Assembly (NCBI RefSeq): GCF_021401245.1
Contig: NZ_JACBFY010000004.1
Coordinates: 124,001-188,000 of the forward strand
DNA: 64,000 nt
Direction: 5' to 3'
Origin: Pseudacidovorax sp. NFM-22
GTDB lineage: Bacteria; Pseudomonadota; Gammaproteobacteria; Burkholderiales; Burkholderiaceae_C
Shown here: positions 53,942-61,169 of the stretch, piece after piece
Layout of the letters: each line of letters begins with the position of its first letter
How positions within the stretch are numbered: the first letter of the stretch is position 1
Notes under the pieces: generated by a model
Databases searched by the model: none
Told to the model about the DNA's origin: nothing
What the model saw: only the letters and a program-made list of their open reading frames with translations
Made by a program: the position numbers and the translations under genes

Positions 53942-55345
53942 ATGGCCGAATTCAAGGACATCTCGCCTAACGCGCCTGCGGGCGCCAAGCTGGGCAACTG
54001 GCTGCACAACCGCTTCCCGACCGCCTTCGACGCCTACCGCGTCCACATGTCGGAGTACTACGCGCCGAAGAACTTCAACTTCTGGTACATCTTCGGCTCG
54101 CTGGCGCTGCTGGTGCTGGTCATCCAGATCGTCACCGGCATCTTCCTGGTGATGCACTACAAGCCGGATGCGACGCAGGCCTTCGCCTCGGTCGAGTACA
54201 TCATGCGCGACGTGCCCTGGGGCTGGCTGATCCGCTACATGCACTCGACCGGCGCCTCGGCCTTCTTCGTGGTGGTGTATCTGCACATGTTCCGCGGACT
54301 GCTCTACGGCAGCTACCGCAAGCCGCGCGAGCTGGTCTGGATCTTCGGCTGCGCGATCTTCCTGTGCCTGATGGCCGAGGCCTTCATGGGCTACCTGCTG
54401 CCCTGGGGCCAGATGTCGTATTGGGGCGCGCAGGTGATCGTGAACCTGTTCTCCGCGATTCCCTTCATTGGTCCCGACCTGGCGCTGCTGATCCGTGGCG
54501 ACTATGTGGTGAGCGACGCCACCCTCAACCGCTTCTTCAGCTTCCACGTGATCGCGGTGCCGCTGGTGCTGCTGGGGCTGGTGGTGGCGCACCTGCTGGC
54601 GCTGCACGACGTGGGTTCCAACAACCCCGACGGCATCGAGATCAAGGCCAACAAGGACGCGCAGGGCCGGCCGCTGGACGGCATCCCCTTCCACCCGTAC
54701 TACACGGTGCACGACATCTTCGCGGTCGTGATGTTCCTGATCGTGTTCACGGCGGTCATCTTCTTTGCGCCGGAAATGGGCGGCTACTTCCTGGAGTACA
54801 ACAACTTCATCCCGGCCGACCCGCTCAAGACGCCCAACCACATCGCCCCGGTCTGGTACTTCACGCCCTTCTATTCGATGCTGCGCGCCATCACCAGCGA
54901 GATGATGTATGCGCTCATCGCCTGCGTCGTCGGTGCCGCGGTGTTCGGCGTCTGGAAGACGCGCATGGCCAGCGTCGCCAAGATCGCCGTGGTGGTGGCC
55001 GCCGTCATCGCCTGCGCGATGATGCTGTCCATCGACGCCAAGTTCTGGGGCGTGGTCGTCATGGGCGGCGCCGTGATCATCCTGTTCTTCCTGCCCTGGC
55101 TGGACAAGAGCCCGGTCAAGTCGATCCGCTACCGTCCTTCCTGGCACAAGTACCTCTACGGCGTGTTCGTCGTCGTCTTCGTGGTGCTGGCCTACCTGGG
55201 CGTGCAGCCGCCGTCGCCCATCGGCGAGCGCGTGTCGCAGGTCGGTACCCTGTTCTATTTCGGCTTCTTCCTGCTCATGCCGTGGTGGACCCGCCTGGGC
55301 GAGTTCAAGCCCGTGCCCGAGCGCGTGACCTTTGCCGCGCACTGA
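53942..55345 (+). CDS. petB: Ubiquinol-cytochrome c reductase, cytochrome b subunit
   Basis: Eight-helix dihaem subunit with the quinone sites (467 residues). Haem histidines are in RYMHSTGASAFFVVVYLHMFRG and RFFSFHVIAVPLVLLGLVVAHLLALH (both partly quoted), and the GYLLPWGQMSYWGAQV and PADPLKTPNHIAPVWYF blocks are diagnostic; the conserved PEWY position reads APVWY here. It lies 16 bases after petA. Confidence 0.97.
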   Translation: MAEFKDISPNAPAGAKLGNWLHNRFPTAFDAYRVHMSEYYAPKNFNFWYIFGSLALLVLVIQIVTGIFLVMHYKPDATQAFASVEYIMRDVPWGWLIRYMHSTGASAFFVVVYLHMFRGLLYGSYRKPRELVWIFGCAIFLCLMAEAFMGYLLPWGQMSYWGAQVIVNLFSAIPFIGPDLALLIRGDYVVSDATLNRFFSFHVIAVPLVLLGLVVAHLLALHDVGSNNPDGIEIKANKDAQGRPLDGIPFHPYYTVHDIFAVVMFLIVFTAVIFFAPEMGGYFLEYNNFIPADPLKTPNHIAPVWYFTPFYSMLRAITSEMMYALIACVVGAAVFGVWKTRMASVAKIAVVVAAVIACAMMLSIDAKFWGVVVMGGAVIILFFLPWLDKSPVKSIRYRPSWHKYLYGVFVVVFVVLAYLGVQPPSPIGERVSQVGTLFYFGFFLLMPWWTRLGEFKPVPERVTFAAH

Positions 55346-55369: not shown

Positions 55370-56125
55370 ATGAAGAAACTGATCCTCTCGCTGATGATGG
55401 CGCTGGGCCTTGCCACGGGCGCCCTGGCGGCCGAAGGCGGCATCGCCTGGGACAAGGCGCCGGTGCGCACCAACGACCTCGCGTCGCTGCAGAACGGCGC
55501 CAAGCTCTTCGTCAATTACTGCCTCAACTGCCACTCGGCCGCCTTCATGCGCTACAACCGCCTGCAGGACATCGGCCTCTCCGAACAGCAGATCAAGGAC
55601 AATCTGCTGTTCACCACCGAAAAGGTGGGTGACACGATGAAGGCCAACATCGATGCCCGACAGGCCAAGGAATGGTTCGGCGGCACCCCGCCCGACCTCA
55701 CTTTGGTGGCGCGTTCGCGCGCAGGTCACAATGGCACCGGTGCCGACTACCTCTACACCTACCTGCGCACCTACTACCGCGACGACACCAAGGCAACCGG
55801 CTGGAACAACCTGGCCTTCCCGAGCGTGGGCATGCCCAACGTGCTGTGGGAACTCCAGGGCGAGCGCCGCCCGGTCTATGACAAGGTGGAGCAGCACGGC
55901 CACGAAACCGAGGTGCTCAAGGGCTGGGAGCAGGTCAAGCCGGGCAAGATGACGCCCCTGCAGTTCGACCAGGCCGTTGGCGACCTGGTCAATTACCTGC
56001 AGTGGATGGCAGAGCCCGCGCAGAACACCCGCGTGCGCGTCGGCGTTTGGGTGTTGCTGTTCCTGGCGGTGTCGCTGGTCTTCGTCTGGCGTCTCAATGC
56101 CGCGTTCTGGAAGGACGTGAAGTAG
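55370..56125 (+). CDS. petC: Ubiquinol-cytochrome c reductase, cytochrome c1 subunit
   Basis: Membrane-anchored c-type cytochrome that takes electrons from the Rieske protein (251 residues). A signal peptide (1-20) is followed by the haem site CLNCH (Cys51, Cys54, His55) and the axial-ligand region after GWNNLAFPSVGMPNVLWEL (Met at the end of the GMPN block). The C-terminal helix VGVWVLLFLAVSLVFVW anchors it. The terminator follows 50 bases after the stop. Confidence 0.96.
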   Translation: MKKLILSLMMALGLATGALAAEGGIAWDKAPVRTNDLASLQNGAKLFVNYCLNCHSAAFMRYNRLQDIGLSEQQIKDNLLFTTEKVGDTMKANIDARQAKEWFGGTPPDLTLVARSRAGHNGTGADYLYTYLRTYYRDDTKATGWNNLAFPSVGMPNVLWELQGERRPVYDKVEQHGHETEVLKGWEQVKPGKMTPLQFDQAVGDLVNYLQWMAEPAQNTRVRVGVWVLLFLAVSLVFVWRLNAAFWKDVK

Positions 56126-57877: not shown

Positions 57878-58261
57878 ATGAACAAGACCGCTCTCCTCGC
57901 CGCCGCCCTGCTGACGCTTGCTGCCGGTGCAGCCTCCGCCGAAACGCAGGAGGACTACATCCAGCAGAACCGCACGCCGGTGCACAGCACCCTGTCGCGT
58001 GCCGAGGTGCAGCAGCAACTGGCTGCCGCCGAGCGCAGCGGCGACGTGGCCGCCATCGGCGAAGCGAGCAGCTTCGGCCAGCAGCCCGTGTTCGTCAGCG
58101 CCCGCACCCGCGCCCAGGTGCAGGCCGAGGCAGTGGCCGCCGCCCATGCCCCCAACCAGAACCTGGACCCGCGCGCCTTCGTCGACAGCCGCCTGCCCGC
58201 CAACATGCAGCGTGAGCCGCAGCGTCAGCAGGCCTCCGGCACCGCCCAACAACCCCTGTGA
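57878..58261 (+). CDS. Small exported protein, DUF4148-like
   Basis: Predicted periplasmic protein of 127 residues. The signal peptide (MNKTALLAAALLTLAAGAASA) is clear and AAAGGA lies upstream of the ATG at 57878. The mature part has LSRAEVQQQLAAAERSGD, which resembles the DUF4148 pattern common in Burkholderiales, then a Gln-rich C-terminus. No cysteine or catalytic motif. Function unknown. Confidence 0.72.
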   Translation: MNKTALLAAALLTLAAGAASAETQEDYIQQNRTPVHSTLSRAEVQQQLAAAERSGDVAAIGEASSFGQQPVFVSARTRAQVQAEAVAAAHAPNQNLDPRAFVDSRLPANMQREPQRQQASGTAQQPL

Positions 58262-58269
58262 GGCCCGCC

Positions 58270-58710
58270 ATGTCCTACGCTTCTTCCGAGACGGGCGCCG
58301 CGCTGGTCCCCCGCCATGACGATGCCGGCAAGCTGGTGCTGCGCCTGGCGGTCGGCGTGCTGGTGCTGCTGCACGGCATCTTCAAGCTGGGCACGGGCCC
58401 GGGCTTCATCGTGAAGATGCTGGCCGCCCACGGCCTTCCCGGGGCCATCGGCTACCTCGTCTATGTGGGCGAAGTGCTGGCGCCGGCGCTGATGATCCTG
58501 GGTCTGTGGACGCGCCCGGCCGCGGCGGTGGTCGTGATCAACATGATCGTGGCCTTCCTGCTGGTGCACACCAGCCAGTTCTTCTCGCTGACCGGCCAGG
58601 GCGGCTGGGCGCTGGAACTGCAGGGGCTGTACCTCTTCGGTGCCCTGGCGGTGATGCTGCTGGGGGCGGGCCGCTATGCCGTGGCCGGCGGCCAGCGCGG
58701 GCTGAACTGA
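58270..58710 (+). CDS. DoxX family membrane protein
   Basis: Four-helix membrane protein of 146 residues. LRLAVGVLVLLHGIFKLGTG, GYLVYVGEVLAPALMILGLW and the final LYLFGALAVMLLGAGRYAV are the DoxX pattern. These proteins are often linked to redox or sulfur metabolism, but nothing here fixes a role. The ATG at 58270 follows the preceding stop by 8 bases, so the two genes may be co-transcribed. Confidence 0.88.
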   Translation: MSYASSETGAALVPRHDDAGKLVLRLAVGVLVLLHGIFKLGTGPGFIVKMLAAHGLPGAIGYLVYVGEVLAPALMILGLWTRPAAAVVVINMIVAFLLVHTSQFFSLTGQGGWALELQGLYLFGALAVMLLGAGRYAVAGGQRGLN

Positions 58711-58728: not shown

Positions 58729-59445
58729 TCAGGCGCCGCCGTCGCCCATCACCTCGGCGACCACGCGGGCCAGGCGCGCCACGTCGGTGACGACGAGGGC
58801 GTCGCCCTCCTTGCGCAGCAGGCCGCTGCGCACCAGCGCATTGAGTTCGCGGGTGACCTGCTCACGGTTGGTGCTGATGCGGCTGGCGAGTTCGGCATGG
58901 CGGGGCGCTGGCGACAGCCGCACCTCGCCGGTGGTGGCATCCGGGCTGGCGGTGCGGGCCAGCCGGAGCAATTCGGCGTGAAGCCGGTTCTGCACGCCCA
59001 GCGTGCTCAGCTCGATCACCCGTTCCGACAACTGGCGCACCAGGGTGGTCAGGCGCTGCATCTGGCGCCGCGCCACCGTCGGTTCTTCCTGCAGCAGCTC
59101 CAGGAAGGCCTCGCGGTCGAGCACCGCCACCAGGCTGTCCTCCACGGTCATCACGTCCGCCGAGCGCGGCTGGCCGTCCAGGGCGGCCAGGTCGCCGACG
59201 ATCTCGCCGGCGCCCAGATCGCGGAAGGTGACCTGCCGGCCGTTGGCGCCGTAGGTGGTCACGCGCACGGCGCCGTCGATCACCAGGTAGACGTCGGCGC
59301 GCCGCTGGCGCCGCAGCAGCAGGGGCTGGCCCGCGGCCACCCGGCGCCAGGCGCAGCGGCCCGCCAGTGCGTCCAGGCGCGCCGGGGGCAGGTCGTCGAA
59401 GAGGGCAAAGCGCCGAAGCGCAAGACTGGAAGGCCGGTCGCTCAT
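58729..59445 (-). CDS. Crp/Fnr-family transcription regulator with cyclic-nucleotide signature
   Basis: DNA-binding regulator of 238 residues. The N-terminal beta-roll keeps the phosphate-binding cassette GEIVGDLAALDGQPRSADV (Gly80, Glu81, Arg94, Ser95), the residues that bind cAMP in E. coli Crp. The dimer helix follows at about 121-155, and the winged helix has RHAELASRISTNREQVTRE (182-200). Only one cysteine (Cys31) is present, so it is not an FNR-type iron-sulfur sensor. It is divergent from the cyclase gene, with 26 bases between start codons. Confidence 0.9.
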   Translation of the reverse strand: MSDRPSSLALRRFALFDDLPPARLDALAGRCAWRRVAAGQPLLLRRQRRADVYLVIDGAVRVTTYGANGRQVTFRDLGAGEIVGDLAALDGQPRSADVMTVEDSLVAVLDREAFLELLQEEPTVARRQMQRLTTLVRQLSERVIELSTLGVQNRLHAELLRLARTASPDATTGEVRLSPAPRHAELASRISTNREQVTRELNALVRSGLLRKEGDALVVTDVARLARVVAEVMGDGGA

Positions 59446-59471: not shown

Positions 59472-61169
59472 ATGAGCCCGCCTCCGCCGGTCGCCGCACC
59501 GGCCGCCCCCGCCCCCTTCTCCTTGCGTTCGCGCCGCGATCTGCGCTGGGCCAGCGGCCTGGTGCTGATGGCCTACGTGACGCTGCACCTGCTCAACCAT
59601 GCGCTGGGGCTGGTCTCGCTCCGGGTGGCCGAAGGGGCGCTGGGGCCGCTTCGCGCCTTCTGGCATTCCTGGCCGGGCACGCTGCTGCTCTATGGCGCGG
59701 TCGCCGTCCACCTGGCCCTCGCCTTCGTGGCGCTGTGGGAGCGGCGCAGCCTGCGCATGCCGCCGTCGCAGGGGCTGCGCATCGTGCTGGGCTTCGCCCT
59801 GCCGCTGCTGCTGGCCTCGCACCTGGCGTCGATGCGCGGCGGCTACACCCTCTTCGGACTAAACGGCAGCTATGCACGGGTGGTCGAGGGCCTGTGGGGG
59901 TCGGCCGGCGGTGTCTTCCAGGTCATCGCCCTGGCCGCGGCCTGGACGCACGGCTGCATGGGCCTGCACTTCGCCCTGCGGGCGGACCCGCGCTGGCGGC
60001 GGGCGCAGCCGCTGTTGCTCGCGGCGGCCGTGTTGCTGCCCACGCTGGCGGCGCTGGGCTTCGTGGCGATGGGGCGCGAGTGGCAGTTCGCGCCAGGGCC
60101 GGTGAACGCGCCCGACGCCGTCCAGGGACACCGGCTGGGCATGCTCGCCGAGCACGGCCAGGACCTCTACGTGACGCTGCTGACGGCGTGCCTGCTCGCG
60201 CGGCTGGCCCGAGGGCGCCTGCACCGGCTCTCCGGCGCACGCATGCTGACGCTGCGCTATCCGGATCGCAGCGTGCAGGTGCCCGTCGGCTGGAGCGTGC
60301 TGGAGGCCAGCCGGGCCCATGGCATCGCCCACCTGTCGCTGTGCGGCGGCCGGGCGCGCTGCTCCACCTGCCGCGTGCGGGTGGCGGGGCCCGCCGGGCA
60401 CTGCCCGCCGCCCGGCCCCGACGAGCAACGCACGCTGGCCCGCGTGCGTGCCGGCGCCCAGGTCAGGCTCGCCTGCCAATTGAGGCCGACGGGCGACCTG
60501 GAGGTCTCCCCGCTGCTGGGCGCCGGCGCGGCCGCCGAAGGCCACCGTCCGCGGCTGGACGGCGAGCGGGAGGTGGCCGTGCTCTTCGTCGACCTGCGCC
60601 GCTGGTCCGGCCTGGCCGAGCGCCAGTGGCCCTTCGACCTCGTCTATGTGCTCGACCGCTACTTCGCGCTGGTCGGCCAGGCCGTGCGGGAGGCAGGTGG
60701 CGTGCCCAACCAGTTCATCGGCGACAGCGTGATGGCCCTTTTCGGCCTGGAGGAAGGCCTGGATCTCGCCTGCCGGCGTGCCTTCCGCGCGGCGGCGCTC
60801 ATCAGCGCGCGGCTGCGCGCGTGGAGCGCCGAGTTCGAGTGCGAATTCGGCCAGCCCCTCGATTTCGGCATGGGCCTGCATGCGGGCACGGCCGCCGTGG
60901 GCGAGGTCGGCCATCTGGACGTGCAGAGCTTCACCGCCGTGGGCGAGGTCGTGAACACCGCCAGCCGGCTGCAGGAGCAGACCAAGGCGGCTGGCGCGGC
61001 GCTGGTGGCCTCGCGCTTCGCGGTGCGGCATGCCGGCCTGTCGCCGGCGGCCGGGGAAATGCGGCGCATCGAGGTGCGGGGCCGCCGCGAGCCCATCGAG
61101 GTGGTCGCCTGGTCGGCCGAGGTGCTGGCCGTGGCCGTGCAGGGCCAGGGTGCATCGCCGCTTTTGTAG
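59472..61169 (+). CDS. Membrane ferredoxin-domain class III nucleotidyl cyclase
   Basis: Three-part signalling protein of 565 residues. Residues about 25-250 form five to six membrane helices with histidines at 39, 43, 80, 117, 160 and 166, resembling succinate-dehydrogenase-type cytochrome b anchors. Residues about 256-348 form a plant-type [2Fe-2S] ferredoxin domain (Cys291, Cys297, Cys300, Cys335). Residues about 365-550 are the cyclase domain: metal-binding Asp374 and Asp418, transition-state Asn495 and Arg499. The usual purine-selecting lysine is Gln414, with Thr488 as in class IIIb. The product could be cAMP or cGMP. Its divergent neighbour is a Crp-type regulator. Confidence 0.9.
   Translation: MSPPPPVAAPAAPAPFSLRSRRDLRWASGLVLMAYVTLHLLNHALGLVSLRVAEGALGPLRAFWHSWPGTLLLYGAVAVHLALAFVALWERRSLRMPPSQGLRIVLGFALPLLLASHLASMRGGYTLFGLNGSYARVVEGLWGSAGGVFQVIALAAAWTHGCMGLHFALRADPRWRRAQPLLLAAAVLLPTLAALGFVAMGREWQFAPGPVNAPDAVQGHRLGMLAEHGQDLYVTLLTACLLARLARGRLHRLSGARMLTLRYPDRSVQVPVGWSVLEASRAHGIAHLSLCGGRARCSTCRVRVAGPAGHCPPPGPDEQRTLARVRAGAQVRLACQLRPTGDLEVSPLLGAGAAAEGHRPRLDGEREVAVLFVDLRRWSGLAERQWPFDLVYVLDRYFALVGQAVREAGGVPNQFIGDSVMALFGLEEGLDLACRRAFRAAALISARLRAWSAEFECEFGQPLDFGMGLHAGTAAVGEVGHLDVQSFTAVGEVVNTASRLQEQTKAAGAALVASRFAVRHAGLSPAAGEMRRIEVRGRREPIEVVAWSAEVLAVAVQGQGASPLL

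Follow-up and report, generated by a model that had tools for sequence, protein, structure and literature searches.

What does the protein encoded at positions 59472-61169 of a stretch of Pseudacidovorax sp. NFM-22 contig NZ_JACBFY010000004.1 sense, and which message does it pass on? All positions refer to this stretch, hereafter the window, which comprises 64,000 nucleotides of a 6.4-Mb genome. The gene joins a membrane domain, a [2Fe-2S] ferredoxin domain, and a class III nucleotidyl cyclase domain in one polypeptide, an arrangement that an earlier note on this DNA had proposed and that translation and Pfam matches to Fer2 and Guanylate_cyc bear out (Table 1). As judged from its sequence features and modeled fold, the protein belongs to the already described CyaC kind. 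We give a probability of about 0.75 to the reading in which it is a β-proteobacterial member of this kind, and the redox state of ubiquinone would be relayed via hemes and a [2Fe-2S] cluster to the cyclase and further to a Crp-type regulator.

Cluster 1 of the class IIIb adenylate cyclases with six transmembrane helices comprises 30 α- and β-proteobacterial sequences, e.g., Rhodopseudomonas palustris Q132R4, in which a ferredoxin domain lies between a cytochrome-b-like four-histidine anchor and the cyclase; the anchor resembles the cytochrome b of fumarate reductase and succinate dehydrogenase and is predicted to bind two hemes (PMC4821796, eLife 2016; this and the following papers are cited from excerpts of their text). 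The CyaC protein of Sinorhizobium meliloti, a root-nodule bacterium, has been described as an adenylate cyclase with diheme-B and [2Fe-2S] cofactors that responds to ubiquinone (PMC10463352), and it is cited likewise in two other papers (PMC9552081; PMC13259868). Its hemes are oxidized and reduced by ubiquinone, resulting in redox-sensitive activity, and according to a figure legend the cyclase is active when quinone oxidizes the hemes (PMC10463352). The earlier note had suggested redox control of second-messenger synthesis, which was the right direction and is largely explained already by the known CyaC kind; its statement that the membrane part and the signal are poorly characterized does not hold in view of these reports. 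It was silent on the adjoining Crp-type gene and on the glutamine at the base-selecting position of the cyclase, both considered below.

The gene is a single open frame of 565 residues, with full-length identity to its relatives ranging between 33 and 98%; the cyclases of a Pseudacidovorax genome bin and of P. intermedius DSM 21352 share 98 and 97% identity, respectively, with the one encoded here. The ratios of nonsynonymous to synonymous substitution rates (dN/dS) against Pseudacidovorax sp. RU35E are 0.11, 0.03, and 0.14 for the membrane, ferredoxin, and cyclase domains, respectively. Because of this full-length conservation and the low dN/dS, we consider the frame a real gene rather than a chance one. 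Searches of the genome at E up to 0.001 identified two further places matching the cyclase domain and no other copy of the membrane domain.

For residues 1-252, Pfam yields no family at E up to 1. The structural model of the membrane part contains eight helices within residues 18-251, two of which (50-64 and 134-141) are short, leaving six long helices. Its top six structural matches are subunits of fumarate reductase or succinate dehydrogenase, i.e., the anchor fold of the CyaC kind and the outcome of the comparison with succinate dehydrogenase that had been suggested as a check. The histidine-rich character noticed earlier corresponds to nine histidines (39, 43, 65, 80, 117, 160, 166, 220, and 228), four of which are near-invariant in the alignment of 64 rows. 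These four, His39, His80, His117, and His160, agree with the four conserved intramembrane histidines typical of the CyaC kind and are the predicted heme ligands; His43 is kept in 59 of the 64 rows, and the other four positions are variable. A profile search with TIGR02046, which we take to be the diheme SdhC family, matched three of 200 genomes of the phylum, none over the cut-off.

As in other proteins of the CyaC kind, a [2Fe-2S] ferredoxin domain (Fer2 at residues 266-340, E 4.5e-8, above the cut-off) is inserted between the anchor and the cyclase. All four cysteines expected from the earlier note (291, 297, 300, and 335) are present, and they are kept in each of the 52 fusion proteins as well as in all 56 alignment rows having this domain, where they would hold the cluster. 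Conservation is strongest in the ferredoxin domain, both by its dN/dS and in loci L103-L109, where its identity is 72-80% versus 51-61% for the membrane domain. Together with the top NCBIfam match of the whole protein, NqrF, which falls on the ferredoxin domain and is far under the cut-off of the NqrF model, this conservation could mean that the [2Fe-2S] domain itself is the input, taking electrons from a soluble reductase or sensing O2 or nitric oxide, and that the heme domain is only an electron sink or anchor. We regard such an input as quite improbable, given the action of ubiquinone on the hemes of S. meliloti CyaC.

The catalytic residues of class IIIb cyclases are two metal-binding aspartates, a threonine, an asparagine, and an arginine, and all of them are found in the cyclase domain (Guanylate_cyc at residues 366-537, E 4.2e-10, above the cut-off) as Asp374, Asp418, Thr488, Asn495, and Arg499. 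Both aspartates had been recognized from the sequence at the outset; Asp374 is retained in 51 and Asp418 in all 52 of the fusions. The base-selecting position is occupied by Gln414, neither the lysine characteristic of adenylate cyclases nor the glutamate characteristic of guanylate cyclases, and its partner Thr488 is retained. As far as can be judged from these residues, Gln414 weighs against the proposed product, lowering the claim for cyclic AMP (cAMP) and leaving membership in the CyaC kind unaffected. Since it replaces Lys410 of CyaC, cAMP is the likely rather than the assured product of the Pseudacidovorax enzyme.

Glutamine occupies the base-selecting column in 25 of the 27 β-proteobacterial fusions, whereas lysine prevails among the 25 α-proteobacterial fusions (15 lysine, 8 glutamine) and the 18 aligned non-fusion class III cyclases (13 lysine, 4 glutamine). 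The nearest Protein Data Bank chain by sequence, 2w01, has glutamate in this column (the molecule is named adenylate cyclase, and the entry title guanylyl cyclase Cya2); lysine is found in 1wc0 and in 6fht, the cyclase part of which has nearly the same sequence as 2w01. The same sensor might have another product, with the Gln414-Thr488 pair relaxing or switching base selectivity toward cyclic GMP (cGMP) or both cAMP and cGMP, to be read by the Crp-type neighbor. The prevalence of glutamine in the β-proteobacterial fusions and the glutamate of 2w01 agree with this possibility, as does the activation of the Crp-type regulator Clr by cAMP and cGMP alike (PMC10127613). We nonetheless consider it unlikely, as the second base-site residue is the same as Thr484 of CyaC, guanylate cyclases usually have glutamate and not glutamine (PMC4886424), and the glutamine, being found also in non-fusion cyclases and α-proteobacterial fusions, may be neutral. 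Among the papers listed in a literature search on glutamine at this position, none was usable on the point. In favor of another product, Rv0386 of M. tuberculosis, whose pair is Gln-Asn, accepts ATP as well as GTP. Loss of output through Gln414, which would leave a largely inactive cyclase on a plain electron carrier, is suggested by the inactive K410A T484A double replacement of CyaC (PMC10463352) and by the degraded cyclase sites of two related loci (L114 and L116, see below); with the remaining checked catalytic residues retained and the domain under purifying selection (dN/dS of 0.14), it appears very improbable.

The candidate receptor is encoded next to the cyclase. A divergently transcribed Crp-type gene, with Pfam matches to the cyclic nucleotide-binding domain (E 1.9e-20) and the Crp helix-turn-helix (E 8.2e-11), is one of 13 places in the genome with genes of this kind, and 26 bases separate its likely ATG at 59445 from the start codon of the cyclase gene, both starts being predicted. 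Of 26 β-proteobacterial loci, counted without the window and the duplicate L115, 18 have a divergent homolog (identity 49-97%) adjoining the fusion gene; it is missing in L008, L112-L114, and L116-L119. In the tree of 64 rows, the clade of the window comprises 20 rows (support 100/99), 19 of them with the Crp-type neighbor; no full Crp-type neighbor was detected in the 25 α-proteobacterial fusion loci at E 1e-4. Ten of these 18 loci (L010-L013 and L106-L111) show none of eight further genes of the window in the fetched flanks (approximately 6 kb on each side, only approximately 1 kb downstream in L011), which also speaks against the ferredoxin domain as the input; L010-L012 are close Delftia relatives, so that the pair stands without other window genes in fewer than 10 independent cases.

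Clr is the top Protein Data Bank sequence match of the neighbor (7pza, E 1.8e-20), and its pocket residues include G85, E86, R95, and S96 (PMC10127613). In all 19 distinct neighbors of the clade, including that of the window, the corresponding columns contain G, D (E in L107 and L110), R, and S, whereas the T140 and T141 columns have leucine and either serine or threonine. The pocket is thus largely kept in this receptor candidate, but the neighbor is not clearly an ortholog of Clr, and orthology is not supported. A bolder proposal, which we find distinctly doubtful, is that the Comamonadaceae branch operates a private redox circuit from the divergent pair, in which the Lys-to-Gln cyclase of a diheme/[2Fe-2S] quinone sensor would make cGMP or a cAMP/cGMP mix for its co-inherited Crp-type receptor.

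Returning to the CyaC-type reading, the fumarate-reductase-like cytochrome b would bind two hemes via His39, His80, His117, and His160 and exchange electrons with the pool of ubiquinone. Together with the [2Fe-2S] domain between the membrane and catalytic parts, the heme redox state would then determine how active the class IIIb cyclase is; by analogy with CyaC, activity should be higher with oxidized quinones. The cyclic nucleotide, most likely cAMP, would be read by a Crp-type regulator, for which the divergent neighbor is the first candidate. Control of second-messenger synthesis by the redox state of the quinone pool is, on this analogy, the best-supported reading. The proximity of bc1 genes (petB, 53942-55345; petC1, 55370-56125) was rejected as evidence for a quinone link, being seen in only 2 of the 26 β-proteobacterial loci (L006 and L007, both Pseudacidovorax), with flanks too short in some loci.

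Table 1. Features of the cyclase gene, its Crp-type neighbor, and the region between them
Feature	Position	Strand	Basis
cyaC-type gene: membrane diheme-type domain, [2Fe-2S] ferredoxin, class III cyclase (565 amino acids, aa)	59472..61169	+	translation, Pfam, alignment; start codon predicted
Six-helix membrane domain, aa 20-252, predicted to bind two hemes b	59529..60227	+	model, predicted local distance difference test (pLDDT) 94.8; structural matches
His39, predicted heme ligand	59586..59588	+	His in 64/64 rows
His80, predicted heme ligand	59709..59711	+	His in 64/64 rows
His117, predicted heme ligand	59820..59822	+	His in 63/64 rows
His160, predicted heme ligand	59949..59951	+	His in 64/64 rows
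[2Fe-2S] ferredoxin domain, aa 258-347, Cys 291/297/300/335	60243..60512	+	Pfam Fer2
Class IIIb nucleotidyl cyclase domain, aa 362-548: Asp374, Asp418, Thr488, Asn495, Arg499	60555..61115	+	
Gln414, base-selecting position (Lys410 in S. meliloti CyaC)	60711..60713	+	alignments
Divergent Crp-type regulator, cyclic nucleotide-binding domain and Crp helix-turn-helix, 238 aa from likely ATG	58729..59445	-	Pfam PF00027, PF13545
GAGCATAAT, only copy in window, between the two start codons	59455..59463	-	motif count

The sequence GAGCATAAT occurs once in the window versus 0.11 occurrences expected; in 9 of the 19 related loci tested, four of them close Pseudacidovorax, it is the sole copy in the locus and lies near the same place. 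It may act as the -10 element in the promoter of the Crp-type gene. Beyond the latter lies a DoxX-like gene (58258-58710, + strand), and in Variovorax (L008) a Pfam-recognized DoxX gene abuts the cyclase gene, with no Crp-type gene found in the locus. Two α-proteobacterial loci (L134:5392-5904 and L137:5490-5954) encode, immediately ahead of the CyaC-type gene and in the same orientation, a short cyclic nucleotide-binding protein lacking the helix-turn-helix (Pfam run on the L134 copy). On rhizobial plasmids, a gene for an FkbM-family methyltransferase (L045:7692-8570) overlaps the CyaC-type gene by one base, and 33 of the 40 matches listed have an FkbM gene named with them.

Some relatives may have other outputs. 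Four loci, L091:1623-4810 (-), L092:7958-11046 (+), L093:4819-8321 (-), and L102:4362-7435 (-), encode the four-histidine membrane and [2Fe-2S] parts without a cyclase, form one clade (support 100/100), and are all followed by an overlapping frame for an MscS-type mechanosensitive channel on the same strand; the overlap is 4 bases in L091 and L093, the true starts of the L092 and L102 channels being not known. The two products may form a redox-linked channel; the three papers listed in a literature search for redox-linked mechanosensitive channels are unrelated by title. The β-proteobacterial fusions L114:5813-7552 and L116:5431-8367 keep the membrane and ferredoxin parts with a degraded cyclase domain, and beside them in the tree cluster eight loci with the membrane domain alone (L094-L101, frames of 242-358 aa; support 95/74). 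No common partner was seen among six scanned neighbors at L094 and L099-L101 (acyl-CoA dehydrogenase, chromate transporter, SIMPL, MdoG, and two without a family).

In a survey of 200 genomes from the same family, at least 14, the own genome included, gave near-full-length fusion matches, with at most six candidates scored per genome; one counted genome (G139, i.e., L114) has the degraded cyclase. In the order of L014, 91 of 297 genomes match the membrane-plus-ferredoxin part, some by one domain only. No study of a β-proteobacterial member was found among the open-licence papers listed, judged by titles and abstract openings. One quinone-responsive cyclase, that of a plant symbiont, was found to have been studied, and the present locus extends this kind to other β-proteobacteria. 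The points still of interest are the question of the product raised by Gln414, the Crp-type neighbor, and the channel-linked relatives. Lys410, where the Lys-to-Gln change lies, was mutated along with Thr484 to inactivate CyaC, which turns the identity of this branch's product into an easily tested question; if the product were cGMP or both nucleotides, proteobacteria would have a cGMP or dual signaling route under respiratory redox control. The conserved gene pair provides a genomic argument for a cyclase-Crp partnership, which in S. meliloti rests on protein-interaction data, and the channel-linked loci suggest that the diheme/[2Fe-2S] module is also employed where there is no cyclase, beside channels of the mechanosensitive type.

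Compared with known systems, the Pseudacidovorax protein has the same layout as the cluster 1 cyclases, with no difference from their published description as far as its excerpts go. With S. meliloti CyaC (SMc01818), compared by description rather than direct alignment, it shares the six-helix diheme-type anchor, the [2Fe-2S] domain, the class III cyclase, and a base-site pair spaced 74 residues apart (Lys410/Thr484 in CyaC, Gln414/Thr488 here), and it differs in the first residue of this pair. The genomic setting differs as well: the TetR-type gene cycR precedes S. meliloti cyaC (PMC10463352), whereas the upstream neighbor in Pseudacidovorax is the divergent Crp-type gene, a departure from the CyaC-CycR-Clr unit; no TetR-like upstream frame was recognized by eye in the 25 α-proteobacterial loci, no profile search having been made on those frames. 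The neighbor shares Gly85, Arg95, and Ser96 with S. meliloti Clr and differs from it by Asp for Glu86, Leu for Thr140, Ser for Thr141, and its location beside the cyclase gene. The membrane part has the same fold as subunit C of quinol:fumarate reductase from Wolinella succinogenes (1qlb_C) and Desulfovibrio gigas (5xmj_C) at 13-15% identity; that subunit serves an enzyme complex, whereas the Pseudacidovorax domain is fused to a signaling output.
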